A DNA stretch of 50,135 nucleotides from Intrasporangium chromatireducens Q5-1 (lineage in GTDB: Bacteria; Actinomycetota; Actinomycetes; Actinomycetales; Dermatophilaceae): positions 1 through 50,135 of the forward strand of contig NZ_AWQS01000008.1 in NCBI RefSeq assembly GCF_000576575.1, read 5' to 3'. Numbering within the stretch: position 1 is the stretch's first letter; every line of letters starts with the position of its first letter. Shown piece after piece: positions 5,469 to 48,272 of the stretch. The translations under genes and the position numbers were made by a program. The notes below the pieces were generated by a model. That model was not told the origin of the DNA. It saw only the letters and a list, made by a program, of their open reading frames with translations, and did not search any database.

Positions 5469-5484
5469 GTATGCCGCTCAGCGG
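5469..5484 (-). repeat. GTATGCCGCTCAGC motif copy at the pyrF 3' end
   Basis: The motif begins at 5469, five bases beyond the pyrF stop on the transcribed strand. Its inner part CCGCT-C-AGCGG (5474-5484) is self-complementary and could form a small hairpin at the end of the pyr operon. There is no U-tract, so a terminator role is only suggested by position. Confidence 0.5.
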
Positions 5485-15878: not shown

Positions 15879-15972
15879 AGCGCATCCCCCGGAGGCGCGC
15901 CCACCGCACCTACGCACGCAACCCAGCTCAGCGGCATACCGCCCGATCTGTTTGACCCGAAAGGAAACTCCC

Positions 15973-17312: not shown

Positions 17313-17336
17313 GCCCCCAACCTAGCCGTATGCCGC

Positions 17337-19946
17337 TCACCCACCTCGCGCGTCGAGGTGCGGTGAGCTGAACCGCGCGGCCCTGCGGCGCACCCGACGC
17401 TCGTGCGGGGGACGGCGTCGCGGCCGGCTGTCCGGCAGCCCGGACCGGGCCAGCCGGAAGAAGCGGCGCTTGGCCACCTCGACGAGGACCAGGTAGGCCG
17501 CGACCATGGCGACGATGACGGCCAGCAGCGAGCCCGGGAGCGGGACGAAGCCGAGCGGCGGCCCCAGGGGCGTGAAGGGCAGCGCGACCCCGCCCAGCAC
17601 AGCGGCCAGCACGGCCACGACGAGCCCCACGCTCGGGCGACTTCGGTAGAACGGCGAGCGCCGGGTGCGGATCACGAAGATCACGAGCGCCTGGGTCGCG
17701 AGCGACTCGACGAACCAGCCGGCGTGGAACAGCGCGGCGTCGGCATGGAAGACCCACAGCAGCACCGCGAACGTGCCGAGGTCGAAGGCGGAGCTCACCG
17801 GACCGAACAGCACCATCCAGCGGCGGACGAGGCGCAGGTCCCAGTGCGATGGGCGGCGCAGCTGTTCGGCGTCGACGGTGTCGCCCGGGATCGCGAGCTG
17901 GCTCGTGTCGTAGAGCAGGTTGCCGAGCAGGATCTGCGGCGGCAGCATCGGCAGGAAGGGCAGGATCGCCGAGGCGATCGCGGCCGAGAACATGTTGCCG
18001 AAGTTGCTCGACGTCCCCATCAGGACGTACTTGATCGTGTTGGCGAAGATGCGCCTGCCCTCGACGACCCCGTCGGCGAGGACCCCGAGGTCCTTCTCGA
18101 GCAGGACGATGTCGGCGGCGTCCTTGGCGACGTCGGTCGCCGTGTCGACCGAGATGCCGATGTCTGCGGCGTGGATCGCGCTCGCGTCGTTGACGCCGTC
18201 ACCGAGGAACGCGACGTCGAAGCCGCTCGCCCGCTGCGCCCGCACGATGCGCTGCTTGTCCTCGGGGGTGACGCGGGCGAAGATCGTCGTGCCGGCGACG
18301 AGGTCGCGCAGGGCGGAGTCGTCGAGCCCGCGCAGCTCGGCGCCGGTCGCCACGGCCCGGACCTCGAGGCCGAGCTCCGCGCAGACCCGCTGCGCGACGA
18401 GCGGGTTGTCGCCGGTGATGAGCTTGACGTCGATCCCGAGGGAGCGGAGCCGGACGAGGGCCACGCGCGCGGATGCCTTGGGCGGGTCGCTGAAGACGAG
18501 GAACCCGACGAGGTCGAGGTCGCGCTCCTGCCTCACGTCGAGCTCGTCGCCCACGCCGGCCCCGAGCACTCGCCGTGCTGCTGCGACGACGCGGCCACCG
18601 GCCGAGAACTCGGCGTCGAGCAGGTCGCGCGTGCCGGGCGGGACGAAGCCGCAGGCTGCGAGGACCTGCTCGGGAGCGCCCTTGACCCACAGCTCGCGGC
18701 GGCCGTCGGGGTGCTCGACGACCACCGAGGCACGCTGCCGGTCGTGGTCGAAGGGCAGCACGGCGACGCGCCGCAGCGGGGCCACGAGCGACCTCGGCCG
18801 TCGGGCGAGCGGTGAGGCCCAGAGGGCTGCGTCGAGCACGTCGAGGTCCGCCGGTGTCACCTCCCCGACGGGAAGCACCGAGGCAGGTGCACTCGTGCAG
18901 GGCAACGCAATGGTGACCGGCTCGTCGGACGGGGCGCCGTCCGGCCCGAGCGACCGCATCAGCTCCATCCGTCCCTCGGTGAGGGTGCCCGTCTTGTCCG
19001 TCATGAGGATCTCGGTGTCGCCGAGGTCCTCGATGCAGACGAGCCGCTTGACGAGGACCCGCTGGCGGGCCAGGGTGCGGGAGCCGACGGCCAGGCTGAT
19101 CGAGACGATGGCCGGCAGCAGCTGCGGGGTGATCCCGACGGCGATCGCGAGCGAGAACAGCAGCGCGTCGATGAGGGGCCGGTGCAAAACCATGTTGGCG
19201 ACGAAGACGCAGGTCGTCAGGGCACCGGCGACGATGACGAGCAGCCCCGAGAACCGGCGCAGGCCGGCCTGGAACTCCGTCTCGCCGTGGCGGCTCCCGA
19301 GGGCGAGGGCCAGCCGCCCGAACTCGGTCCGGCCCCCGGTCGCGGTGACGACGCCGAGGCCCGAGCCGCCGACGACGACGGTGCCCATCCACGCCCGGGT
19401 GGGGTCGTCCAGCTCGGCCACCTGAGCGGCCCCGTCCGATGCCGCCTGCTTCTCCACGTGCGCCGTCTCCCCGGTGAGGATCCCCTCGTCGCACAGCAGT
19501 GTCGCGGTCGACAGGAGCAGCAGGTCGGCCGGGACGACCTGTCCCCGCTGCAGCTGCACGAGGTCACCGGGCACGAGGCCGACGACGTCGACCCGGACCG
19601 GGACGCCGTCGCGCACCACCATCGCCTCGTGCCGGATCCGGGAGTGCAGCGCCTCGGCCGCCCGGGCGGCCCGGTACTCGTTGGTGAACCCGAGGCCGAC
19701 CGAGACGACGAGGATGACGCCGATGATGACGGCGTCGGTCTGCTCGCCGAGGAAGAACGACACGGCGGCGGCCCCGGCGAGCAGGACGAGGAGCGGCGAG
19801 CGCAGCTGTGCGACCAGCACCGGGAGCCACTGCGCCCGGTGCGTGCGCACCGCGTTGGGGCCGACCACCGCGAGACGCCGGGCGGCCTCCTCGGACGTCA
19901 GGCCGCGCGCACGACCGATCGCCTGGGTGGACTGAGTGGGGGCCAC
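17337..19946 (-). CDS. mgtA: MgtA-type magnesium-importing P-type ATPase
   Basis: An 869-residue membrane ATPase of the P3B class, bringing Mg2+ into the cell. The phosphorylated Asp is in DKTGTLT near residue 317, the actuator loop LTGETAHVEK near 159, the hinge GDGVNDASAIHAADIGISVD near 585. Class-specific membrane motifs are VGITPQLLPAIVS (MgtA has VGxTPxxLPxIV) and GNLLYDTSQLAIPGDTVD; about ten transmembrane segments in the usual 2-2-6 arrangement. Start GTG 19946. The basic C-terminal tail (about 35 residues, Arg-rich) is longer than in E. coli MgtA. I see no M-box riboswitch in the 116-bp gap to nusB. Confidence 0.92.
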   Translation of the reverse strand: MAPTQSTQAIGRARGLTSEEAARRLAVVGPNAVRTHRAQWLPVLVAQLRSPLLVLLAGAAAVSFFLGEQTDAVIIGVILVVSVGLGFTNEYRAARAAEALHSRIRHEAMVVRDGVPVRVDVVGLVPGDLVQLQRGQVVPADLLLLSTATLLCDEGILTGETAHVEKQAASDGAAQVAELDDPTRAWMGTVVVGGSGLGVVTATGGRTEFGRLALALGSRHGETEFQAGLRRFSGLLVIVAGALTTCVFVANMVLHRPLIDALLFSLAIAVGITPQLLPAIVSISLAVGSRTLARQRVLVKRLVCIEDLGDTEILMTDKTGTLTEGRMELMRSLGPDGAPSDEPVTIALPCTSAPASVLPVGEVTPADLDVLDAALWASPLARRPRSLVAPLRRVAVLPFDHDRQRASVVVEHPDGRRELWVKGAPEQVLAACGFVPPGTRDLLDAEFSAGGRVVAAARRVLGAGVGDELDVRQERDLDLVGFLVFSDPPKASARVALVRLRSLGIDVKLITGDNPLVAQRVCAELGLEVRAVATGAELRGLDDSALRDLVAGTTIFARVTPEDKQRIVRAQRASGFDVAFLGDGVNDASAIHAADIGISVDTATDVAKDAADIVLLEKDLGVLADGVVEGRRIFANTIKYVLMGTSSNFGNMFSAAIASAILPFLPMLPPQILLGNLLYDTSQLAIPGDTVDAEQLRRPSHWDLRLVRRWMVLFGPVSSAFDLGTFAVLLWVFHADAALFHAGWFVESLATQALVIFVIRTRRSPFYRSRPSVGLVVAVLAAVLGGVALPFTPLGPPLGFVPLPGSLLAVIVAMVAAYLVLVEVAKRRFFRLARSGLPDSRPRRRPPHERRVRRRAARFSSPHLDARGG

Positions 19947-20062
19947 GAGCCCATCGTCGCGCGCCGACCGGTGGCACGGCGTGGGACCTTCGGCCCATCC
20001 TCACCCGGCCGGGAGCCCGCGCCGACGCTGGAGCCAGCTGTGCGGCATACGGCCGGATGGCG

Positions 20063-21038: not shown

Positions 21039-21222
21039 GAAGGAATCTCTCTCGTATGCCGCTCAGCTCGCTCATGCAGGCATGGCGAAGTCACGGACGA
21101 AGGAAGTTTGCCGCGTAAGTCTAGCCGTGGGCGCCACCGAACGCGGAATCGTCGGTGTCGGTGCTGCTCGCGTGGGTGTAGCGTCGTCCGTCCGCTCCTT
21201 CCCCCCGTTCACGAGAGGTGCC
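21039..21222. promoter_or_regulatory. divergent efp / helR intergenic region
   Basis: These 184 bp must hold both promoters. Candidate -10 boxes are TAGACT (21123-21118, minus) for efp and TAGCGT (21179-21184, plus) for helR; neither has a clear -35. A GTATGCCGCTCAGCTCGCT copy begins at 21054 in the efp 5' leader. I do not recognise a rifamycin-associated element here. Confidence 0.4.
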
Positions 21223-23903: not shown

Positions 23904-23957
23904 GACCGCGAGTGTAGAAGAGGCCGTATGCCGTTGTGCCTGCTCCACGCGGACGGC

Positions 23958-30297: not shown

Positions 30298-30797
30298 CGA
30301 CGTGGGGCCTTCTTCCGTGGCTTGCGCGCCGACGAGACGGTCTCGCCGGCCGGCACACCGGACTGCGTCTCGGCGTCGAGGGCCACCTGCAGGATAAGCA
30401 CAGCTGCAGCCTGGTCGACGACGGCCCGCTGCCCCCGGCCCGGCACACCGCTGTCGCGTAGTCTGCGGTGCGCGTCGACCGTCGTCAAGCGTTCGTCGAG
30501 GAGGCGCACGGGGACCGGGCGGACCCGCTTCGCCAGCTCGGCGGCATACGACCGGGCGATCTGGGCCGCCGCGCCCTCCGCGCCGGAGAGCAGGAGCGGC
30601 AGGCCGACGACGACGCCGACCGCCTGCCGGTCGGACACGAGCGCCGTCACCTCGTCGAGGTCGCTGCCGCCCTCCGCGTCGCGCGGCAGGGTGGCGACCG
30701 GCAGCGCAAAGCTGCCGGTGGGGTCCGACGCTGCGATCCCGACGCGGGCGTTGCCGACGTCGACGCCGATCCGGACCCCGGGAAGCATCCCCGTCAC
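30294..30797 (-). CDS. ruvX: RuvX/YqgF RNase H-like pre-16S rRNA nuclease
   Basis: A 167-residue RNase H-fold protein, involved in 16S rRNA 5' maturation in E. coli and formerly called a Holliday-junction resolvase. Acidic residues are in [16 protein letters not shown] (11-26), [11 protein letters not shown] and [14 protein letters not shown] 30797 overlaps the alaS stop by 4 bp. Conserved alaS-ruvX-mltG-aroE order. A GGCATAC motif copy lies at 30543-30549. The C-terminal 25 residues are Lys/Arg rich. Confidence 0.95.
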
Positions 30798-33499
30798 GTA
30801 CCCAGCGCGCGCAGCTGGTCCTCGACCGCACCGAGCGCGGCAGAGACCTTGCTCGCGTCGGAGCCGCCGCCCTGGGCGATGTCGTCCTTGCCGCCACCGC
30901 CGCCGCCGAGCTGCTGCGCCGCGGTGCGCACGAAGGCACCAGCCCGAAGGCCGGCCTGCCGGGCGCGCTCGTTCGTCGCGACGATGGTGATCGGCCGGCC
31001 CTGGTTGACGGCGGCCATCGAGACGAGCGCCGGCCGGTCGTTGCCCAGCCGGTGGCGCACGTCGAGCACGAGGGCGCGCAGGTCGTCGGCGGTGACGTCG
31101 GTGCCCGCGTCGTGGCTGACGAAGCTCACACCGCCGATGTCGCGGGCGGTGGTGACCAGGCCCGCTGCGGCACCGAGGACCTGCGCCTGGCGCACCGCGG
31201 CGATCTCCTTCTCCGCGTCCTTGAGCTTGCCGAGGATGCCGGAGATCCGTTCGGGCAGCTCCTCGGGCCGGGCCTTGACGATCTCGGCGAGCTGGCCGAC
31301 GATCGCCGCCTCGCGGGCGAGGAAGGAGTAGGCGTCGGCGCCGACGAGCGCCTCGACGCGGCGCACGCCGGAGCCGATGGACGACTCACCGAGGAGCTTG
31401 ACGACACCGAGCTGCCCGGAGCGCTGGGCGTGCGTGCCACCGCACAGCTCACGCGCCCAGTCGCCGACCGAGACGACCCGCACCTCGTTGCCGTACTTCT
31501 CCCCGAACAGGGCCATCGCACCGATGTCGTGCGCCTCCTGCTGCGTCATGATCTCGGCGTGGACCGGCAGGTCCTCGAGCAGCAGCGCGTTGACCTTGGC
31601 CTCGACGTCGGACAGGACGGAGCCGGGCACCGCGTGCTGTGCCTTGAAGTCGAAGCGGAACCGGCCGGGCGCGTTCTCGGACCCGGCCTGCGTGGCGGTG
31701 TCGCCGACGGCCTCGCGAATCGCTTTGTGCACCATGTGAGTTGCGGTGTGGGCGCGCGAGATCGACCGGCGGCGGTCGATGTCGACCTTGGCGAACCCGA
31801 GCTCGCCCGGGTTGACCTCCCCCTGGACGACCGAGGCGCGGTGCACGATGAGCCCGTTGATCGGCTTCTGGACGTCGCGCACGTCGATGATGGCGCCGTT
31901 CTCGAGCTCGATGAGGCCGCCGTCGGCGAGCTGGCCGCCGCCCTCGGCATAGAACGGAGTCCGGTCGAGGACGATCTCGATCTCGTCGCCGACGCTCGCC
32001 GCATCGACGTTCTCGCCGCCGCGGATGATGCCCGCGACACGGCCCTCCGAGACGACCTCGTCGTAGCCGGTGAACTCGACGTCGCGGCCGAGCCCGTCGG
32101 CGATCTGCCGGTAGACGTGCATGTCGCCGTGGGCGGTCTTCTTGGCGCGGGCGTCCGCCTTCGCGCGGTCGCGCTGCTCGGCCATCAGCCGGCGGAAGCC
32201 CGCCTCGTCGACCTCGACGCCCTGCTCGGCCGCCATCTCGAGGGTCAGGTCGATCGGGAACCCGTAGGTGTCGTGGAGGGTGAAGGCCTGCTCGCCGCTC
32301 AGCTGCTGCGGCGCCTGGGGCCACGCCTTGATCCGGCCCACCGCCGTGTCGAGGATCGTCGTGCCGGACGAGAGGGTGCGGCGGAACGCGTCCTCCTCGG
32401 CATAGGCCACCTGGCTGATCCGGTCGAAGTCGCTGCGCAGCTGCGGGTAGGACTTGCTCATCTGCTCCATGCTGACGGGCAGCAGATGCGGCATCGCCGG
32501 CTCGTCGACCCCGAGGAGCACCATCGAACGGACCGCCCGACGGAGCATGCGGCGCAGGACGTAGCCACGTCCCTCGTTGCTCGGGGTGACGCCGTCGCCG
32601 ATGAGCATCAAGCAGGTGCGGACGTGGTCCGCCACGACGCGCAGGCGCACGTCGTCGGGGTGGCTCTCGGAGGCGATGTGGCTCGGGGCCGCGCCATAGG
32701 CCTTGCCCGCCATCTCGGCCGCCTTGTCGAGGACCGGGAACACCTCGTCGATCTCGTAGAGGTTGTCGACGCCCTGCAGGATGCTCGCCATCCGCTCGAG
32801 CCCCATCCCGGTGTCGACGTTGCGCGCGGGCAGCGGCCCCGCGACGTCGAAGTCGACCTTGCTGCGCACCGCGGACAGGTCGTACTGCATGAAGACGAGG
32901 TTCCAGATCTCCATGTAGCGGTCCTCGTCGACGGCCGGGCCGCCCTCGCGGCCGTACTCGGCGCCGCGGTCGACGAAGATCTCGCTGCACGGGCCGCCGG
33001 GGCCCGGCACCCCCATGTGCCAGTAGTTGTCGGCCTTGCCGCGCTTGACGATGCGCGCCGGCGGGATGTCGGTCAGCTCGAGCCACAGCTCGGCGGCCTC
33101 GTCGTCGTCCTCGTAGACCGTCGCCCAGAGCCGCTCGGGGTCGAGGCCGTAGCCGCCCTCCTGCTGCGGCTTGGTCAGCAGCTCCCACGCGAACGCGATG
33201 GCGCCTTCCTTGAAGTAGTCGCCGAAGGAGAAGTTGCCGTTCATCTGGAAGAAGGTGCCGTGCCGGCTCGTCCTGCCGACCTCCTCCAGGTCGGGGGTGC
33301 GGACACACTTCTGCACCGAGGTGGCCCGGGGGTAGTCGGGCGTCTCCTGGCCCAGGAAGTACGGCTTGAAGGGCACCATGCCGGCATTGACGAAGAGCAG
33401 GTTCGGGTCGTCGAAGGGCAGCGGTGCACTCGGGACGACGGTGTGACCGCGGCTCTCGAAGAACGAGAGCCAGCGACGCCTGATCTCGGCGGTTTCCAT
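30794..33499 (-). CDS. alaS: alanyl-tRNA synthetase
   Basis: A 901-residue class II synthetase. The catalytic core opens with [20 protein letters not shown] (residues about 7-26) and carries [15 protein letters not shown]; the editing domain has the zinc ligands HTATHMVH (HxxxH) and CGGTH (CxxxH); the C-Ala domain ends with the Gly-rich [18 protein letters not shown], typical for the family. ATG 33499 by homology; the frame runs open 60 bp more. The 171-bp upstream region holds a strong hairpin (33597-33646) but no T-box pattern I recognise. Confidence 0.98.
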
Positions 33500-33596
33500 G
33501 CGGTGGCGGTCCTTGTGTGTGGGCGGCAGGGATGACCCGTGCGGTTGGCGCGCGGGCAATGCTCAACCCTATCCGACACGCGTTGCCGGCCCCACG

Positions 33597-33646
33597 ACAG
33601 CGGTATGCCGCTCAGCTCGCTGAGCTGAGCGGCATACGACTGCTGT
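33597..33646. terminator. hairpin from an inverted pair of the GTATGCCGCTCAGC motif
   Basis: Left arm 33603-33617 (GTATGCCGCTCAGCT) and right arm 33623-33637 pair perfectly over 15 bp with a 5-nt loop; ACAGC (33597-33601) and GCTGT (33642-33646) extend the stem after a small internal loop. It is 25 bp past the oppF stop, in the terminator position of the opp operon, and upstream of alaS. Confidence 0.8.
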
Positions 33647-33670
33647 GAGCGGGCTTCTGGCCTCAGCCCC

Positions 33671-34717
33671 TCACGCAGGGACCTCGGCGACCAGGGCCGG
33701 CTTGATCTCCGGGAAGTGGCACGCCTGCAGGTGCAGCCCGTTCTCCCGGCCCTGGATCGGCAGGTGCGCGTTCGTCGACTCGACGAGCGGCGGCTCCTCG
33801 GTGGCACACAGCTCCTGCGCCTTCCAGCACCGCGTCCGGAACCGACACCCGCTCGGCGGGTCGATCGGGCTCGGCACGTCACCCACCAGGCGGATCCGCT
33901 CACGCGGGGGCACGCCGCGGGCGACGTTGATGTCCGGTGCCGCCGACAGGAGCGCCTGCGTGTAGGGGTGCTCGGGCCGCTCGTAGATGTTGCGCTTGTC
34001 GCCGTACTCGACGATCTTGCCGAGGTACATGACCGCGACCTGGTCACAGAAGTGCCGGACCACGCCGAGGTCGTGCGCCACGAAGATGAACGCGAGACCG
34101 AGCTCGTCACGCAGCTTCGCGAGCAGGTTCATCACCTGCGCCTGGATCGACACGTCGAGGGCCGAGACCGGCTCGTCGGCGATGATCAGCTTCGGCTCCA
34201 CGGCGAGGGCGCGGGCGATCCCGATGCGCTGGCGCTGTCCGCCGGAGAACTCCGACGGGTAGCGGTTGATGTGCTCCGGGTTGAGGCCGACGAGCTCGAG
34301 CAGCTCCTTGACCCGCTGCTTCTCCCGGCCCTTGTGCAGGCCGTGCACCTTCAGCGGCGTCGTGAGGATCGAGCCGATGGTGTGGCGTGGGTTCAGCGAC
34401 GAGTAGGGGTCCTGGAAGATCATCTGGATGTCGCGGCGGATGTCCCGCAGCTGCGACTCCTTGAGAGTCGTGATGTCGCGGCCCTCGAAGACGATCTTGC
34501 CCGACGTCGGCGTGTCGAGCCGGGTCACCAGCCGTGACGTCGTCGACTTGCCACAGCCGGACTCGCCCACCAGACCGAGCGTCTGGCCCTCCTGGACGGA
34601 GAAGCTGATCCCGTCGACGGCCCGGACGCTGGCCTTGACCATGCGCAGGCCCTGGATCTCACGGAACGGGAAGTAGCGCACCAGGTCGGTGACCTCGAGC
34701 AGGGTCTTGTCGCTCAT
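33671..34717 (-). CDS. oppF: oligopeptide ABC importer ATP-binding protein (OppF type)
   Basis: A 348-residue ATPase of a peptide importer. Walker A GESGCGKST, signature FSGGQRQR, Walker B LIIADEPVSALD and switch HD are intact; the C-terminal oligopeptide region carries GCRFRTRCWKAQELC, a Cys-rich motif that binds an iron-sulfur cluster in several peptide importers. Start ATG 34717 overlaps the oppD stop by 4 bp. Last gene of the operon; a motif-derived hairpin follows. Confidence 0.93.
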   Translation of the reverse strand: MSDKTLLEVTDLVRYFPFREIQGLRMVKASVRAVDGISFSVQEGQTLGLVGESGCGKSTTSRLVTRLDTPTSGKIVFEGRDITTLKESQLRDIRRDIQMIFQDPYSSLNPRHTIGSILTTPLKVHGLHKGREKQRVKELLELVGLNPEHINRYPSEFSGGQRQRIGIARALAVEPKLIIADEPVSALDVSIQAQVMNLLAKLRDELGLAFIFVAHDLGVVRHFCDQVAVMYLGKIVEYGDKRNIYERPEHPYTQALLSAAPDINVARGVPPRERIRLVGDVPSPIDPPSGCRFRTRCWKAQELCATEEPPLVESTNAHLPIQGRENGLHLQACHFPEIKPALVAEVPA

Positions 34718-36797: not shown

Positions 36798-36830
36798 GGT
36801 GGGGGCACGAGGGTCGCTCGTGCCCCCACC
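36798..36830 (-). terminator. strong hairpin between oppA and oppB
   Basis: GGTGGGGGCACGAG (36798-36811) and its complement (36817-36830) form a perfect 14-bp GC-rich stem with a 5-nt loop, 39 bp past the oppA stop. In binding-protein operons such hairpins often act as partial terminators or 3' stabilisers, giving more binding protein than permease. No U-tract. Confidence 0.7.
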
Positions 36831-36868: not shown

Positions 36869-38635
36869 TTACTGCTCGATCCAGATCTGCGTCATGACCG
36901 GCATACCGTGGTTCGGGTCGTTCAGGACGTTCTTGACCTTGGTGCCGAAGACGTAGTTGCCCTTGTCGTACTGGTAGGGGATCGCCGGCAGGTAGTTCTC
37001 GAAGAGCCACTTGTCGAACTTGCCCCACTCCGGGCCCTGCTCCTCGATCTTGAGCTTCTGGATGCGGGCGACCTCAGCGTCGACCTTCGCGTCCTGCAGG
37101 TTGCCCCAGTTGGTGCTGCCCTGGGCCATGGACACCGAGGTGACCATGGGCGGGAAGATCGAGTCGGCGGCCGGCCAGTCGAAGCACCAGCCAGCAGGCG
37201 CCTGGAGGATGTTCTGCGGGCCCTTCGGGTCGGCGTAGAGCTTGCGCCGGTCCTTGCCGGGGACGCCCATGTCCTTGACCTTGAAGCCTGCGGCCTCGAG
37301 CTTCTGCTTGCGGACCTGGTTGACCTTCTGGGCGGTCGGGACGTCGTTCGTGTAGTAGTACACGAGCTCGAACGGCTTGTCGGGCCCGTAGCCGGCCGCG
37401 GCCAGCATCTCCTTGGCCTTGGCCGGGTCGCCGTCGCCGGTGCCGTCGAAGCCGTTGACGCCCTTGTAGTCGACCCAGCCCGGGATCTGCGGCGGGATGA
37501 AGGTCGTGCCGGGCGTGAAGGAGTGCGTCGTCTCGCCACCAGCCTTGCGGAGGGAGTCGAACGGGTACGCCACCGCGACGGCCTTGCGGACCTCCATCGG
37601 GATCTTGCTCGTGACGAGGTTGACCGTGTAGACGCACGAGGACGGACCCTCGACGAACTGGTCCTTCTTCGGGCCCTCGATCTGGTCGATGAGCGACGAG
37701 TCGATCGGGTCCCAGTTCATCGACGTGGCGTCGACACCGTTACTGGCGAGGATGGCCTGCTGGACCTTGGTGCTGTCGACGCCGAACTTGAAGTCGTAGC
37801 CGTCGAGGTAGTTGTTGCGCGCCGGGTCCGTGGCGGGATCCCACTGGTCGTTGCGGACCAGGGTGAGCTCCGAGCCCGGGGTGTACTTGTCGAACTTGTA
37901 CGGGCCGGTGGCGAGCGGGTGCAGGGTGTAGTCCTGCTTCTTGTCCTTGGCCTCGGGGATCGGCGAGAACTGCGGGTAGGACGCGAAGTAGGACAGCGAC
38001 TCGAAGGGCTTCTCGAGGTGGATGACGACCGTCTTGTCGTCGGTGGCCTCGACGCCGTTCCAGTTCTTGTCGCCCTGGTAGGGGCCCTTGTAGTCCTTGC
38101 CACCCTTGAAGAAGTCACGCTGGTAGGTCGGGCCGTTCGCCGCGAGGTCGGGGTCGAAGGACCGCTTGATCGCGAAGACGACATCCTTGGCGGTGACGGG
38201 CGAGCCGTCCTCGTACTTGATGCCGTCCTTGAGGGTGAAGGTCCAGGTCAGGCCGTCGTCGGAGACCTTGCCGAGGTCGGTGGCGAGGTCGGGGACGAGG
38301 ACCGACTTGCCGTCGCGGTAGGAGTACGACGTCAGCGTGCGGTGCGTGATGCCGAGGATCGCGATGGTGTCGGTGTAGTACTGGTCGCTCGGGTCGAAGT
38401 TGGCGGGCGTCGAGGCGTAGGGGACGGTCAGGATGCCGCCCTTCTTGGCCCCGGGAACCTCGGGCGCCGGGCCCTTGGCGTCAGGCATGAGGCCCGAAGA
38501 GGCCTGCTCGAGCTTGCCGCCACCGGTCTGCCCCGGCTTGGCGTTGTTGTCCGCCGACGGGTTGGGCGCGCCGCAGGCCGCGACGAACCCGAGGGAGACG
38601 GCCGCTCCCACGGTCAGGACTTTGGTCCAGCGCAT
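36869..38635 (-). CDS. oppA: oligopeptide-binding lipoprotein (solute-binding family 5)
   Basis: A 588-residue extracytoplasmic binding protein. The signal ends in lipobox VAAC, so Cys21 is lipidated. A disordered Gly/Pro/Lys linker precedes GGILTVPYASTPANFDPSD, the usual start of the SBP_bac_5 domain; WTFTLKDGIKYEDGSPVTAKDV (in two parts, near residues 125-146) is the family signature. ATG 38635 follows AAGGGAG by eight bases. Ligand cannot be read from sequence; family 5 includes peptide, nickel and sugar binders, but the paired OppD/F favour peptides. Confidence 0.9.
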   Translation of the reverse strand: MRWTKVLTVGAAVSLGFVAACGAPNPSADNNAKPGQTGGGKLEQASSGLMPDAKGPAPEVPGAKKGGILTVPYASTPANFDPSDQYYTDTIAILGITHRTLTSYSYRDGKSVLVPDLATDLGKVSDDGLTWTFTLKDGIKYEDGSPVTAKDVVFAIKRSFDPDLAANGPTYQRDFFKGGKDYKGPYQGDKNWNGVEATDDKTVVIHLEKPFESLSYFASYPQFSPIPEAKDKKQDYTLHPLATGPYKFDKYTPGSELTLVRNDQWDPATDPARNNYLDGYDFKFGVDSTKVQQAILASNGVDATSMNWDPIDSSLIDQIEGPKKDQFVEGPSSCVYTVNLVTSKIPMEVRKAVAVAYPFDSLRKAGGETTHSFTPGTTFIPPQIPGWVDYKGVNGFDGTGDGDPAKAKEMLAAAGYGPDKPFELVYYYTNDVPTAQKVNQVRKQKLEAAGFKVKDMGVPGKDRRKLYADPKGPQNILQAPAGWCFDWPAADSIFPPMVTSVSMAQGSTNWGNLQDAKVDAEVARIQKLKIEEQGPEWGKFDKWLFENYLPAIPYQYDKGNYVFGTKVKNVLNDPNHGMPVMTQIWIEQ

Positions 38636-39972: not shown

Positions 39973-41367
39973 TCACCGAGAGCCGGACGTGCGCCCGAGG
40001 CGCCCCTCCAACCACTCGAGCCGGGCACGGAGCCGCTCCTCGAAGCCACGATCGGTCGGATGGTAGTAGGTCGCGTCGGCCAGGTCGTCGGGGAGGTACG
40101 CCTGGCGCGCCACGGCATCCGGTTCGTCGTGCGAGTAGACGTAGCCCTCGCCGTGGCCGAGCCGATCGGCACCGGCATACCCGCTCCCCCGCAGGTGCGC
40201 CGGCACCGGGCCGCCTCGGCCGGCCCGGACGTCCGCGATGGCGGCGTTGATCCCGGCGTAGGCGGCGTTGGACTTCGGCGCCAGCGCGATGTGGACGACG
40301 GCCTGCGCGAGGATGATCCGCGCCTCCGGCATGCCGATCTGCGCCACCGCGTGCATGGCGGCGACGGCGGTCTGCAGGGCGCTGGGGTCGGCCATGCCCA
40401 CGTCCTCGCTCGCCGCGATGACGATCCGGCGGGCGATGAACCGCGGGTCCTCACCGGCCTCGAGCATCCGGGCGAGGTAGTGCAGTGCCGCGTTGACGTC
40501 ACTGCCGCGCATCGACTTGATGAGTGCGCTCGCGACGTCGTAGTGCTGGTCACCGGCGCGGTCGTAGCGGACCGCCGCGTGGGCCACGGCCTGCTCCACG
40601 TGCCCGAGCGAGATGCTGACGGGCTCGTCCGTATGCCGCCCGGCGGGCTGCGCGTCGAGGGCCACGCCCGCTGCCGCCTCGAGAGACGTGAGCGCCCTGC
40701 GGGCGTCGCCGCCGGCGATCCGCACCAGGTGCTCGAGGGCGTCCTCGCCGAGCGCGTACTCCCCCGCGAGCCCGCGCTCATCGGCGAGGGCCGACTCGAC
40801 CACCTCGCGAATATCCTTGTCCGACAAGGAAGTCAACGTCACCAAGACGGACCGGGACAGCAGCGGGGAGATGATGCTGAACGACGGGTTCTCGGTCGTC
40901 GCGGCGACGAGGATGACCGTCCGGTTCTCGACGCCGGGCAGCAGCGCGTCCTGCTGCGCCTTCGTGAAGCGGTGGATCTCGTCGAGGAACAGGACCGTCT
41001 CTCGCCCGTACAGGTCGCGCTCGCGCACCGCCGCCTCCATGACGGACCGGACGTCCTTGACGCCCGCCGTGACCGCGGACAGCTCGACGAACCGGCGGTC
41101 GGCCGCCGTGGCCACGAGGTGGGCGAGCGTCGTCTTGCCCGTGCCCGGCGGTCCCCAGATGATGGCCGACAGCGGCCCCGCCGAGCCGCCGGACCCCTCG
41201 ATGAGGCGGCGGAGGGGACTGCCCGTGCGCAGGACGTCCGCCTGCCCCCGGAACTCGTCGAGTGACCGGGGACGCATCCGGGCGGCGAGCGGAGCGGAGC
41301 CCCGCTGAGCGGCATACTCCTCACGCGCTGCCGCTCCCGCGGCGCCGAAGAGGTCGTCTGAGGTCAC
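39973..41367 (-). CDS. rarA: replication-associated recombination protein A (RarA/MgsA)
   Basis: A 464-residue AAA+ ATPase that acts at stalled forks with SSB. N-terminal DLFGAAG and [17 protein letters not shown], Walker [10 protein letters not shown] (72-80), Walker B FLDEIHRF near 126, sensor-1 ATTENPSF, and the C-terminal tetramerisation domain with [12 protein letters not shown] 41367 by the conserved N-terminus. Only 17 bp separate its start from the divergent MMPL gene. Three GTATGCCG motif copies lie inside (40174, 40631, 41311). The motif at 41311 encodes EYAAQ in the variable N-terminal stretch. Confidence 0.96.
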
Positions 41368-41384: not shown

Positions 41385-43592
41385 GTGCTCCAGCAGTCCT
41401 CCCCGGTGGACCGGGTCCGCACCGGTCCGCTCGCTCGGCTCGGCCGGCTCGTGGCCCACCACCCCGTCCGGTGGCTCGTCGCCTGGGTCCTCATCACGAT
41501 CGCGTGCTTCGCCGTCGCGGTCGGTGGCGTCACCGGCCAGTCGCTCTTCAACCGGCTCCACTCGGGCGACCCCAGTGTCGGTGGGGAGGCCCAGCAGGCC
41601 CGCACCGTCATCGAGCGGATCGAGCCGTCGTTCGACAACCTCATGCTCCAGGTCCGAGGTGCCGACCTCAGGGACGCCGCGGCCGTGCGGCAGGCGGCGG
41701 CTCGGACGGCGCAGATCCGGGACATCGCCGGCGTCCACGAGGTCCGCTCACCGCTGCTGTCCCCCAAGGGCGTTGCCGTCCCCTCGGTGGCTCCCCTCTT
41801 GGCCGGCGGGACGGCCAGCTCCGGCGGCTTCATCACGGTCGTCGACTTCAAGGCCGGCCTGACCAAGGCCGACCAGAAGGCGGCCGAGCAGCAGGTCACG
41901 ACCGCGCTCGGCACGGTCACGAGCGCCTTCCCGGGAGCGACCGGCGAAGTGGGTGGCGTGCAGCCGGTCATCGACGCGATCACGTCCACTGTCGAGCGAG
42001 ATCTGTTGCGTGGTGAGGGAATTGCCCTGCCCTTGACGTTCATCGTGATGTTCTTCGTCTTCGGCGGTTTCGTGGCGGCCGGCATGCCCGTCGTCGGCGC
42101 CGTCGCGGCGATCGGCGGGGCGCTGCTGTCCCTCTTCGGCTTCTCACACGCCGTCGACCTCGACGCGACCGTCGTCAACATCGTGACCCTGCTCGGCTTC
42201 GGCCTGTCGATCGACTACGGCCTGCTCACGGTCAGCCGGTTCCGTGAGGAGCTCGCGGTCGCCCGGGGCGACGCGGCCGAGCTGACCCAGGAGCACATCG
42301 TCCAGGCCACCGGGCACACGGTGGCGACCGCCGGCCGGACCGTGCTCTTCTCGGGGCTGACCGTCGCGATCGCCCTGGCCGGTCTGCTCGTCTTCGAGGC
42401 CGAGATCATGAAGGCCATCGGCTTGGCGGGCGTGTCGGTCGTCCTCGTCGCGCTCGTCGTGGCCGTCACCCTCGTGCCGGCCCTCGCCGTCCTGGGGGCG
42501 CGACGGCTGGCGCGCAAGGCGCGCGTCGCCGCGTCCGACGAAGGCGCCTTCTCCGCCCTCGCACGCACGGTGCAGCGGCGACCGATCCTCGTCATCATCG
42601 GCGTCCTCGTCGTCCTGGTGGCGCTCGCCATCCCGACGTTCTCGGTGAAGCTCACCGCCTCCGGGACCGACCTGCTGCCCAAGTCGGCGCCGCAGCGGGT
42701 CTTCTTCGAGGACCTCGCCCGCGACTACCCGACCCTCAGCTCCCCCGAGGTGACGGTCGTCGCGACCTCGTCCGACACGGCCGCGGTCACGACGTGGGCC
42801 CAGGGACTCAGGTCCGAGCCGGGCGTCACGGCCGTGTCCGTCAGGCCCCTCGGGACCGACCACCAGCTCGTCTCCGTCCGGGTGGCCGGCTCCCCCACCT
42901 CCGACGACGCGCAGGCGGTGGTGAGCCACGTCCGCGAGGGCGGCGCGCCGTTCCCGACGCTGACGACGGGCCAGGCGGCCGGTCAGATGGACTTCCTGTC
43001 GTCCATGGCCCGTGGGGCGCCGTATGCCGTCCTGCTCGTCGTCGTCGGGACGTTCCTGCTGCTCTTCCTCATGACGGGGTCCGTCGTCGTCCCGATCAAG
43101 GCGCTGCTGCTCAACGTCCTGTCGCTGGGCGCCGCCCTCGGGGTCGTCGTGTGGGTCTTCGAGAAGGGACACCTCGAGGGCCTGCTCGCCTTCTCGTCCG
43201 TCGGCGCGGTCGAGTCGATGGTGCCCTTCCTCGTACTCGCCTTCGGCTTCGGGCTCTCGATGGACTACGAGGTCTTCCTGCTGTCGCGGATCACGGAGTT
43301 CCACAACCACGGCCACGACAACGACCGGTCCGTCTCCCTCGGGCTGCAGCGCACGGGCCGGATCATCACGTCCGCCGCCCTGCTCATCATCATCGTCTTC
43401 GCCGGGTTCATCGCCGGAGACATCCTCATCATCAAGGAGATCGGCGTCGCGCTCGTCGCTGCGGTCCTCATCGACGCGACCCTCGTCCGCATGCTCCTCG
43501 TGCCCGCCACGATGACCCTGCTCGGCCAGTGGAACTGGTGGTCCCCCCGGCCGCTCCGGCAGCTGCACGAGCGCTTCGGGATCACGGAGTGA
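41385..43592 (+). CDS. MMPL-family transporter (RND superfamily)
   Basis: A 735-residue polytopic membrane protein with two repeats: helix 1 (VRWLVAWVLITIACFAVAVG, about residues 29-48), a large extracytoplasmic loop, helices 2-6 with GFGLSIDYGLLTVSRFREE, then a second loop and helices with GFGLSMDYEVFLLSRITEF. The paired Asp-Tyr motifs are the proton-relay signature of MmpL proteins. The start at GTG 41385 has GGAAGG eight bases upstream; a later GTG is possible. Substrate unknown: relatives export lipids, siderophores or drugs. A GTATGCCG copy is at 43022. It overlaps the next gene by 4 bp. Confidence 0.9.
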   Translation: MLQQSSPVDRVRTGPLARLGRLVAHHPVRWLVAWVLITIACFAVAVGGVTGQSLFNRLHSGDPSVGGEAQQARTVIERIEPSFDNLMLQVRGADLRDAAAVRQAAARTAQIRDIAGVHEVRSPLLSPKGVAVPSVAPLLAGGTASSGGFITVVDFKAGLTKADQKAAEQQVTTALGTVTSAFPGATGEVGGVQPVIDAITSTVERDLLRGEGIALPLTFIVMFFVFGGFVAAGMPVVGAVAAIGGALLSLFGFSHAVDLDATVVNIVTLLGFGLSIDYGLLTVSRFREELAVARGDAAELTQEHIVQATGHTVATAGRTVLFSGLTVAIALAGLLVFEAEIMKAIGLAGVSVVLVALVVAVTLVPALAVLGARRLARKARVAASDEGAFSALARTVQRRPILVIIGVLVVLVALAIPTFSVKLTASGTDLLPKSAPQRVFFEDLARDYPTLSSPEVTVVATSSDTAAVTTWAQGLRSEPGVTAVSVRPLGTDHQLVSVRVAGSPTSDDAQAVVSHVREGGAPFPTLTTGQAAGQMDFLSSMARGAPYAVLLVVVGTFLLLFLMTGSVVVPIKALLLNVLSLGAALGVVVWVFEKGHLEGLLAFSSVGAVESMVPFLVLAFGFGLSMDYEVFLLSRITEFHNHGHDNDRSVSLGLQRTGRIITSAALLIIIVFAGFIAGDILIIKEIGVALVAAVLIDATLVRMLLVPATMTLLGQWNWWSPRPLRQLHERFGITE

Positions 43593-46271: not shown

Positions 46272-46408
46272 GGGGATCCTTCCGAGGTGGTGACGATGGT
46301 GGCGTATGCCGCTGAGCCCGGCGAGCGGGCACAGCCCCTCATCCTACGGTGTGCTGCTCACCCTCTGGTCCGGCTGCATGCGGCCGGCCCCCGCTGGGTA
46401 GCGTGGAG
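46272..46408. promoter_or_regulatory. divergent aspS / acyltransferase intergenic region
   Basis: This 137-bp gap holds a GTATGCCGCTGAGC copy (from 46304) and a -10-like TAGGAT on the minus strand (46346-46341) for aspS. I see no convincing -35 boxes and no T-box. Confidence 0.35.
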
Positions 46409-47488
46409 ATGGTGCAGCACTCCCGGAACCAAGACCTCGACGGGGTCCGCGGCCTGGCCATCCTGCTCGTCATCGCCGCGCACGTCGGGCTGCCCGTCCG
46501 TTGGGGCGGCCTGTCCGGCGTCACCCTCTTCTTCGTCCTGTCCGGCTATCTCATCACCACGTTGCTGATCCGCGAGTGGGACACCTTCGGGTCGGTCAGC
46601 CTGTGGCGCTTCTGGGGCCGCCGCGCGTTGCGCCTGCTGCCCGCCCTGGTGCTGCTGCTCGCGCTCGTGCCCGTGCTCCTGCTCGTCACGCACGACGACC
46701 GCCTCCGCACCTACCCCACAGCGGCCGTCGCCTCGCTGCTCTACGTCGGCAACTGGGTCCGGGTGCACGGCACCGACCTCGGGGTGCTGAACCACCTGTG
46801 GTCCCTCTCGGTGGAGGAGCAGTTCTACGTCGTGTGGCCGCTCCTCTTCATCGCGTTGCTGCGGTGGTGGCGGCGGCACGTCGTCACGGTCGTCGTGACC
46901 CTCGCCGCGATCGCCACCTGCTACAGCGTGTGGTCGCGGGGGTCCTACATCTCCACCGAGTCCAACGCCTTCGCCCTCCTGCTGGGCGTGAGCCTCGCCC
47001 TCGCGCTCGCCGGGATCCACCGGCGCGGCTGGCGGCTGCCGGCGGCCTCGCCCGCCGTGCCGTTCGCCGTGCTCGTCGCTGTCTCCGCCTTCCCGAGCCA
47101 CGGCCTGGCGACCGATGTCAGCCTCTTCGAGCCGCTCGGTGCCCTCTACGCGTTCATCAGCGTCTGGCTCGTGGCGTCTGCGGCTCTTGGGCACTCACGG
47201 GTCGTCGGGTCCCGGTTCATGGTCTTCTTCGGCACGATCAGCTACGCGCTCTACCTCTGGCACCAGACGCTCATCAACTCGCACCTGCTCGGCCCGCACG
47301 CGATCCCCCGCAACCTCGTGCTCGTCGCGGTGGCGATCGCGCTGGCCTGGATCTCGTGGGTCGCCGTCGAGCGACCGATCGGTCGGCTCCGGGGCAGGCT
47401 GCACCTCGACCGCCGGCGCGAGCCGGCACCGGCTGCTGCCGACGAACGACCCTTGGTCACGCAGGGCGCAGCCGAACCGTCGTCCTGA
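46409..47488 (+). CDS. acyltransferase 3 family membrane protein (OafA/YrhL type)
   Basis: A 359-residue polytopic membrane protein with about ten helices. The family N-terminus DLDGVRGLAILLVIAAHVG carries the conserved Arg and His; FFVLSGYLIT, RRALRLLPALVLLL and SLSVEEQFYVVWPLL are all diagnostic. Such proteins O-acylate cell-surface polysaccharides, peptidoglycan or lipids. There is no C-terminal SGNH domain. Start uncertain: ATG 46409 or GTG 46403; conserved sequence begins 8 residues in. The acceptor is unknown. Confidence 0.88.
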   Translation: MVQHSRNQDLDGVRGLAILLVIAAHVGLPVRWGGLSGVTLFFVLSGYLITTLLIREWDTFGSVSLWRFWGRRALRLLPALVLLLALVPVLLLVTHDDRLRTYPTAAVASLLYVGNWVRVHGTDLGVLNHLWSLSVEEQFYVVWPLLFIALLRWWRRHVVTVVVTLAAIATCYSVWSRGSYISTESNAFALLLGVSLALALAGIHRRGWRLPAASPAVPFAVLVAVSAFPSHGLATDVSLFEPLGALYAFISVWLVASAALGHSRVVGSRFMVFFGTISYALYLWHQTLINSHLLGPHAIPRNLVLVAVAIALAWISWVAVERPIGRLRGRLHLDRRREPAPAAADERPLVTQGAAEPSS

Positions 47489-47541: not shown

Positions 47542-47592
47542 CCACGAGAGGTATGCCGCTCGCCCGACCGGGCTGAGCGGCATACCTCGTGG
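47542..47592. terminator. hairpin from a second inverted pair of the GTATGCCGCT motif
   Basis: GTATGCCGCT (47551-47560) pairs with AGCGGCATAC (47576-47585); GCCCG/CGGGC forms an inner stem and CCACGAG (47542-47548) with CTCGTGG (47586-47592) an outer stem. The structure lies midway between the acyltransferase stop and the converging Nudix stop, so it probably terminates both. Confidence 0.8.
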
Positions 47593-47600
47593 TGGGTCCG

Positions 47601-48272
47601 TCAGGCGCGCTGGGAGGGGTGCGCGGGCCAGGGCGCGTCGTGCGGGCGCAGCGTCTCCCACCCGAGCGAGCGGGAGGTCGCCGCCGCGAGCACGCCGATC
47701 ACGGCCGCGGAGTTGTGCACCTCGCCGGCGAGGACGGCGCCGACCGCCTCGTCGAGCGGCACCCAGAGAGGGCGCAGGTCGGCCTCCTCGCCGGTGCGCT
47801 CGTGGCCCGTGCCGTCGGGCACATCGCTGAGGTCGCGGGCGAGGAAGACGCGCACGGCCTCGGGGAAGGCCCCCGGTGAGGCAAAGCTGTCGGCGAGCAC
47901 GTCCCACCGACCGGCGCGCAGGTCGACCTCCTCGGCGAGCTCGCGCGCGGCGGCCTGCCAGGGCGGCTCGTCGTCGACGTCGAGGATGCCGGCGGGCAGC
48001 TCCCACAGGTGCGCCCCGGCGGCGTGCCGGTACTGCCGGATCATCATGACGTGGTCGACGCCGTCGACCGGCCGGAGCGCGACGATGACGACGGCCCCCG
48101 GGTGCTCGATGTAGTCACGCTCGACGACCCCGCCCCCTTCGCCGAGGTCGACGGTGTCACGGCGCACGTCGAAGATCATGCCCTCGAAGAGGACCTTCGA
48201 GTCGAGGACCGGCTTGCGGCCGTAGTCGTCGTGCAGGTCGCTCCCGCGCCCGAGCGGCGCCGAGAGGGTCAC
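47601..48272 (-). CDS. Nudix hydrolase, ADP-ribose pyrophosphatase type
   Basis: A 223-residue Nudix protein. The box runs from Gly95 (GILDVDDE) through RELAEEVDL (110-118), one residue longer between Gly and the first Glu than the textbook Gx5E, as in many actinobacterial ADP-ribose pyrophosphatases. Upstream [15 protein letters not shown] and downstream [17 protein letters not shown] fit that subfamily. GTG 48272 overlaps the pyrG stop by 4 bp; pyrG-Nudix adjacency is common in actinobacteria. Likely clears ADP-ribose or related nucleoside diphosphates. Confidence 0.9.

Follow-up and report, generated by a model that had tools for sequence, protein, structure and literature searches.

Reports of self-specific DNA uptake were found only for the Pasteurellaceae and the Neisseriaceae. 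The USS of Pasteurellaceae combine a short core with a longer, weaker flank and occur in many copies in and between genes (cf. PMC1626085). The DUS of Neisseriaceae, as portrayed in the available portions of two papers, are short non-palindromic words that number hundreds to thousands, lie on both strands in and between genes, come in dialects with a fixed core, are missing from some members of the family and form inverted pairs at gene ends (PMC3630211, PMC2397512). In the accessible part of the second of these papers the spacing of DUS was tied to conversion tracts and their origin was argued to lie in recombination (PMC2397512), and for USS the receptor is described as only predicted in the excerpt at hand (PMC12616744). 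For Actinobacteria no report of uptake sequences was found in the open-licence literature, and in mycobacteria they are stated, in the available text of one source, not to have been reported (PMC10526031).

The stretch of DNA analysed here, called the window, comprises 50,135 nucleotides of Intrasporangium chromatireducens Q5-1 (contig NZ_AWQS01000008.1, positions 1 to 50,135), and contains 3' of oppF a hairpin whose two arms are both copies of a dispersed motif with the core octamer GTATGCCG. This motif resembles neisserial DUS in its copy number, its occurrence on both strands and in genic as well as intergenic DNA, its dialects, its loss from some genomes and its inverted pairs at gene ends, but differs in sequence, in phylum and in the lack of an outer membrane in its hosts. 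With the USS of Pasteurellaceae it shares the core-plus-flank form and the high copy number, while sequence and lineage differ. HIP1 of cyanobacteria is a palindromic octamer that is extremely over-represented within its clade; GTATGCCG is likewise a clade-wide over-represented octamer, but is non-palindromic and carries genus-specific extensions. REP/BIME elements are GTA-starting units that form inverted pairs at gene ends, and the motif is similar to those associated with RAYT in both respects; in contrast, no Y1_Tnp gene was found in the Q5-1 genome, and most of its copies have no hairpin of their own and many are genic. An identity with neisserial DUS proper was rejected, since GTATGCCG does not contain the CTG core that the available part of one study reports for all dialects (PMC3630211), and there is no homology between the two. 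The likeness to DUS that had been drawn in an earlier, sequence-only reading of this DNA thus holds for the genome-wide behavior of the motif, which resembles that of an uptake sequence, but not for homology.

The hairpin 3' of oppF and other motif copies in the window

In the gap between oppF and alaS, GTATGCCGCTCAGCTC and GAGCTGAGCGGCATAC face each other across the loop GCT (33619-33621), forming a perfect stem of 16 bp with a loop of 3 nt. The perfect inverted pair described in the sequence-only reading was therefore recovered, although it is one base pair longer than the 15 bp with a 5-nt loop given there. When the outer stem ACAGC/GCTGT, which had also been pointed out and is present in the sequence, is included, the arms extend to 26 nt with 85% complementarity (33593-33618/33622-33647) and make up the longest of the window's short-range inverted repeats, the one that heads the list. 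The stop codon of the OppF/DppF-type ATPase gene is located about 24 nt from the hairpin, in agreement with the previously noted 25 bp, and alaS lies beyond it, with all of these features on the minus strand. Folding of the hairpin as minus-strand RNA gave -50.5 kcal/mol compared to a mean of -28.0 for shuffled sequences (z -8.36), and 0 of 200 shuffles were as stable. A scan of 33300-34000 for U-tract terminators found none, as had been remarked before. With respect to the criteria for rho-independent terminators the stem is present and the U-tract is absent, and the oppF hairpin is thus not a canonical intrinsic terminator. The 15-mer form of the motif, with up to 2 mismatches, has 15 matches in the window compared to a mean of 0.06 in shuffles (Table 1). 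In addition, a perfect 14-bp hairpin without the motif, GGTGGGGGCACGAG/CTCGTGCCCCCACC, was observed at 36798-36830, immediately beyond the stop codon of the gene at 36869-38635.

Table 1. Positions of the oppF hairpin, its neighboring genes and the motif copies in the window.
Feature	Position	Strand	Evidence
Single core, intergenic, extended copy GTATGCCGCTCAGC	5469..5476	+	motif match
Single core, intergenic	15932..15939	-	motif match
Single core, intergenic	17328..17335	+	motif match
Single core, intergenic	20043..20050	-	motif match
Single core, intergenic, exact 15-mer	21054..21061	+	motif match
Single core, intergenic	23926..23933	+	motif match
alaS, alanyl-tRNA synthetase, follows hairpin	30794..33499	-	Pfam tRNA-synt_2c, tRNA_SAD, DHHA1
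Whole imperfect hairpin with outer ACAGC/GCTGT stem; opp operon 3'-end hairpin on minus strand	33593..33647	.	inverted repeat, RNA fold; no U-tract
Left hairpin arm, motif copy GTATGCCGCTCAGC	33603..33618, core GTATGCCG 33603-33610	+	motif match
Right hairpin arm, second motif copy, inverted	33622..33637, core 33630-33637	-	motif match
OppF/DppF-type ATPase gene upstream of hairpin	33671..34717 (listed ORF to 34861)	-	Pfam ABC_tran, oligo_HPY
Core inside gene 36869-38635; I. calvum and I. oryzae lack it, without gap	36899..36906	-	alignment
Core with full extension in called gene 39973-41367, near called start (start maybe too long)	41310..41317	-	motif match, gene call
Core inside gene; CCG-TAT-GCC in Q5-1, CCC-TAC-GCC in G001, CCC-TGG-GCC in I. 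calvum, no gap	43022..43029	+	alignment
Single core, intergenic	46304..46311	+	motif match
Second inverted motif pair, between ends of convergent genes 46409-47488 (+) and 47601-48272 (-)	47551..47585	.	motif match, gene calls

The exact 30-bp palindrome of the motif was also found in I. calvum PheN6, I. oryzae NRRL B-24470 and the MAG Intrasporangium sp. 43_S57. Alignment of an orthologous 20-kb region from four Intrasporangium genomes, with matched blocks that were mostly 74-88% identical, revealed in all four an inverted motif pair in the oppF-alaS gap, in two arrangements. The pair faces inward in Q5-1 and G001, where the two arms show a matching change, whereas I. calvum and I. oryzae have an outward pair, the copies being far apart in the latter. 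The word thus seems to have come into a paired arrangement more than once at this gene end.

Abundance, dialects and distribution of the motif

In the 4.8-Mb genome of Q5-1 the word GTATGCCGCTSAGC has 496 exact copies and its reversed control 0, while the core octamer GTATGCCG has 1572 copies compared to 213 for the control, and the 15-mer, when up to 2 mismatches are allowed, 937 compared to 21. From 450 kb of this genome 69 strict copies yielded GTATGCCGCTSAGCYSGCTC; sites close to the ends of sequence pieces were left out of these strict-copy counts as well as of the genic/intergenic and pair-flank counts described below. An unbiased k-mer search of 400 kb of Q5-1 and approximately 75-100 kb of each of eight relatives ranked GTATGCCG among the strongest words in Q5-1 and seven of the relatives, with G104 as the exception, and its observed numbers exceeded expectation by 80 to 4.0 in G044 and by 84 to 3.9 in G008. 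Genus-specific extensions ("dialects") follow the core on its 3' side, namely GTATGCCGCTGRGCTCGCTCCC in G016, GTATGCCGCTSAGC in Q5-1 and GTATGCCGCG in G044 and G043, and there is little extension past the octamer in G008 and G012. The motif accordingly has the strong genome-wide excess of a short word over chance that is characteristic of uptake sequences, and similarly a core that is common to related species in the form of dialects and missing from some relatives. Family-wide the two strands carry almost identical numbers of GTATGCCG (87,472 forward, 87,662 reverse). With regard to recently acquired DNA, the motif is scarcer in low-GC windows, where a control word drops in parallel. Its spacing showed no evenness beyond that of a random distribution, with coefficients of variation inside the random range for all of the 8 genomes analyzed. 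The random spacing of the family motif differs from that of DUS with its tie to conversion tracts.

Several other repeats were encountered in the same samples. The k-mer and coding sample of G036 (L083-L087) includes an unrelated high-copy repeat, with words around CTCCGTCCCGCG and CCGCGGGAGTGCTTCC that occur approximately 57 times in 100 kb, resemble a CRISPR array and dominate the k-mer list. A word of the TCGAAAGAGCA type occurs 10-11 times in the 100-kb sample of G016 (L093-L097), compared to about 0.1 expected. In G049 and G104, which belong to an otherwise motif-poor genus (g49), GTATGCCACTCGGCGGG is recurrent among the near matches and is perhaps another repeat.

The family in question is the Intrasporangiaceae of NCBI, which we take to be the Dermatophilaceae of GTDB. 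At least 80 copies of GTATGCCG per Mb were present in 88 of its 149 genomes, with a maximum of 1356 per Mb. The density is broadly two-peaked: 61 genomes have fewer than 80 per Mb, 80 have at least 160 per Mb, at which level the excess over the reversed control is at least 2.5-fold (median 10-fold), and 8 lie between. When grouped by genus, every genome reaches 80 per Mb in 29 of 53 genera and none does in 21, while 3 genera are mixed. Two of the three mixed genera contain one clear loser each beside motif-rich sisters, with 4 per Mb in G069 compared to 221 and 722 in other genomes of g26, and 10 per Mb in G124 compared to 357-470 in g36. In contrast, 273 genomes that represent 19 further families of the same order included none with clear enrichment of GTATGCCG; their highest count, in a table read by eye, was 177 copies in 2.2 Mb, where the control gave 135, suggesting that the motif is limited to the family as far as sampled.

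Copies inside genes and paired copies at gene ends

The gene-based statistics cover 1.24 of the 4.8 Mb of Q5-1, of which 85% is coding, and 75-100 kb of each of the other genera, and rest on codon-model calls rather than on published annotation, so that some starts are surely off. Exact extended copies in the 1.24 Mb comprised 42 genic and 76 intergenic or gene-edge sites, with 0 for the control, and thus favor intergenic DNA. The motif is nevertheless far more frequent within genes than codon usage would predict, and in both orientations, as is the case for uptake sequences. In the coding sequences of Q5-1 the 10-mer GTATGCCGCT occurs 133 times compared to a mean of 2.1 and a maximum of 5 in 30 synonymous shuffles, a 63-fold excess, and TAT-GCC-GCT codes for 66 of 172 Tyr-Ala-Ala (YAA) peptides, where 0.6 would be expected from codon use. 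Likewise, the octamer was found 15-65 times in the coding sequences of seven other genera compared to 2.5-9.3 times in synonymous-codon shuffles (5- to 16-fold), and 6 times compared to 4.2 in the motif-poor G104. The genic copies are spread along the gene, and 97 of 113 lie 60 nt or more away from both ends. These counts indicate that selection or drive acts within genes on the DNA word itself.

In the alignments of Intrasporangium genomes 56 of 60 site-by-species comparisons at coding sites were gap-free; 26 comparisons were exact matches and the remainder showed 1 to 7 substitutions. Such differences by substitution without gaps argue against the insertion of an element. Motif sites in coding DNA were conserved in 26 of 57 cases across the four species compared to 66 of 390 for similar words, a difference in the expected direction that is based on few sites and non-independent comparisons. 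Some coding sites differ between Q5-1 and a relative at multiple positions; in Neisseria multiple differences at DUS sites have been read, in the part of the study at hand, as arrival by recombination (PMC2397512).

The same 1.24 Mb contain 416 core sites, of which approximately 70 are in pairs and 228 are single copies within genes. Among neighbors within 80 nt, 35 were on opposite strands and 4 on the same strand, and the 35 opposite-strand pairs, 25 of them inward and 10 outward, were intergenic or at a gene edge in all but one case, which lies within a gene. For the analysis of gene context 33 of these 34 pairs were used, one being dropped for having no called neighbor. Convergent gaps, which have a length share of 12%, held 13 of the 33 pairs (p 6e-5), divergent gaps 3 and tandem gaps 17, and 14 of the 17 tandem-gap pairs were closer to the stop than to the next start (p 0.006). 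Single copies, in contrast, were near random relative to gene context. The pairing of the dispersed motif at a position where a terminator would be expected, as proposed in the sequence-only reading, was borne out by the excess of opposite-strand neighbors and their bias to 3' ends, and the comparison of paired copies with gene ends that it had suggested revealed a distribution that is not random. In their position and pairing these copies correspond to the closely spaced inverted pairs of uptake sequences at transcription ends.

In the flanks of the motif the nearest eight positions were complementary at 0.64 in inward pairs of Q5-1 (24 of 25 retained) compared to 0.45 with shuffled partners (maximum 0.53), and similarly at 54% in 25 inward pairs of other genera compared to 40% after shuffling (maximum 52%). 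For outward pairs no flank covariation beyond partner shuffling was detected in Q5-1, and the excess in other genera was borderline. On contig C14 of Q5-1 (L035, 17668-18540) a small tandem array is made up of four inward-pair hairpins, nearly identical and each about 67 bp long, with starts at 17668, 17832, 18302 and 18466 and steps of 164, 470 and 164. Pairs of 64-66 bp with a second GC-rich hairpin between the motif copies were observed at L009 11068, L013 17775, L025 1698 and L012 1414.

Uptake machinery and explanations of the motif

The Q5-1 genome encodes ComEA, ComEC, two TadA-type ATPases, Flp pilin and RcpC/CpaB, and contains two Flp/Tad loci. Micrococcus luteus belongs to a family other than that of Intrasporangium. 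Its transformation is served by two tad clusters together with comEA/EC, the same set as in Q5-1, according to the available part of a paper in which the term "uptake sequence" was found in 0 places (PMC4322843). An uptake machinery is thus encoded, as for uptake sequences, but does not discriminate between genomes. ComEC was found in 145, PF00437 ATPases in 148 and matches to a TadA query in 147 of the 149 family genomes, motif-rich and motif-poor alike, and ComEA-like genes were recognized by pattern at 11 of 12 comEC loci of both kinds, the one miss being G104. Consequently, none of the genes tested in the 149 genomes (ComEC, PF00437, TadA query) separates motif-rich from motif-poor genomes or explains the presence of the motif. 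Nevertheless, its abundance in and between genes, its dialects, its patchy loss and its pairs at 3' ends, all as in DUS, together with the ComEA/ComEC/Tad kit suggest a preferred tag for DNA uptake. We consider it probable from these sequence patterns that the motif is a family-specific word similar to uptake sequences and that its facing pairs at gene ends are kept as 3'-end or terminator hairpins.

A binding site of an abundant chromosomal protein with a function in nucleoid structure, repair, recombination or replication could in principle yield the same motif pattern, if the genome were selected to keep many sites for reasons unrelated to uptake. The motif would suit such a protein in being non-palindromic, dispersed, both genic and intergenic and family-specific, and the absence of an uptake-route gene that tracks its presence is consistent with this explanation. 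However, loss from whole genera and single species, dialects with a fixed core and inverted pairs at 3' ends are features of DUS in the available portions of the neisserial studies (PMC3630211, PMC2397512), and no comparable class of cellular sites was found in the literature search, so that we regard a chromosomal-protein site as unlikely, though worth keeping in view. It is improbable that the motif is only a hairpin unit for transcription termination or mRNA 3' ends, with single copies as decayed halves. While the position of the pairs at 3' ends, the covariation of their outer flanks and a degenerate right arm after some single copies agree with such a unit, only about 70 of the 416 core sites are paired, 228 single copies are genic, and the genic copies, 97 of 113 in gene interiors, exceed synonymous shuffles many-fold.

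A mobile REP or MITE-like element with GTAT ends might account for the recurrent 64-66-bp forms that possess both ends and an inner GC hairpin. However, the flanks of the pairs outside the motif vary from locus to locus, and coding sites arise by substitution (56 of 60 gap-free). Moreover, a search for Y1_Tnp (RAYT) found 0 in the one Q5-1 genome, while the same search was positive in 5 of 14 control genomes. Given the lack of Y1_Tnp and the gap-free gain of sites, an origin from RAYT/REP was rejected and a mobile element of this type appears very improbable. Polar chromosome motifs, for instance Chi and KOPS, are likewise short, non-palindromic and over-represented words, but inverted pairs of the present motif are abundant, both strands are equal family-wide, and the 18-mer, when its forward copies were counted by eye along the complete G016 chromosome (4.02 Mb), gave 22 (0-1 Mb), 23 (1-2 Mb), 19 (2-2.89 Mb) and 23 (rest). 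The equal strands and this even forward density make a polar motif of this type very improbable.

For the motif as an uptake-sequence-like word, the following course of events can be envisaged. The competence machinery would include a receptor at the cell surface with a preference for DNA bearing the motif, with the core GTATGCCG and here in the form GTATGCCGCTSAGC, and recurrent rounds of transformation by like DNA would spread and maintain it by substitution and recombination, both in and between genes. Any two copies that ended up facing one another at the end of a gene would form a strong stem that could be retained there as a 3'-end or terminator hairpin. We infer from the genomic patterns that the motif is recognized in DNA uptake, that the Flp/Tad route is used and that pairs end transcription. 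In its widest form, which in our judgment stands at an even chance, this proposal would make the system of the Intrasporangium family the first known uptake-sequence system in Actinomycetota or in any Gram-positives, with an ancestral core GTATGCCG that diverged into genus dialects and was lost in single species, with a receptor of the Flp/Tad type or another competence receptor, not ComP, and with inverted pairs reused as 3'-end hairpins free of a U-tract.

If true, the family would provide a second, independent set of dialects, in Gram-positive bacteria without an outer membrane, and the general traits of such systems, i.e. a core with dialects, molecular drive and reuse as hairpins, could be separated from the particulars of type IVa pili and ComP. 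The losses in G069 (g26) and G124 (g36) represent natural within-genus pairs that could serve as material for finding the receptor. Moreover, the proposal would predict which of the actinobacteria in soil and sludge are naturally transformable, and how DNA may be tagged for them.
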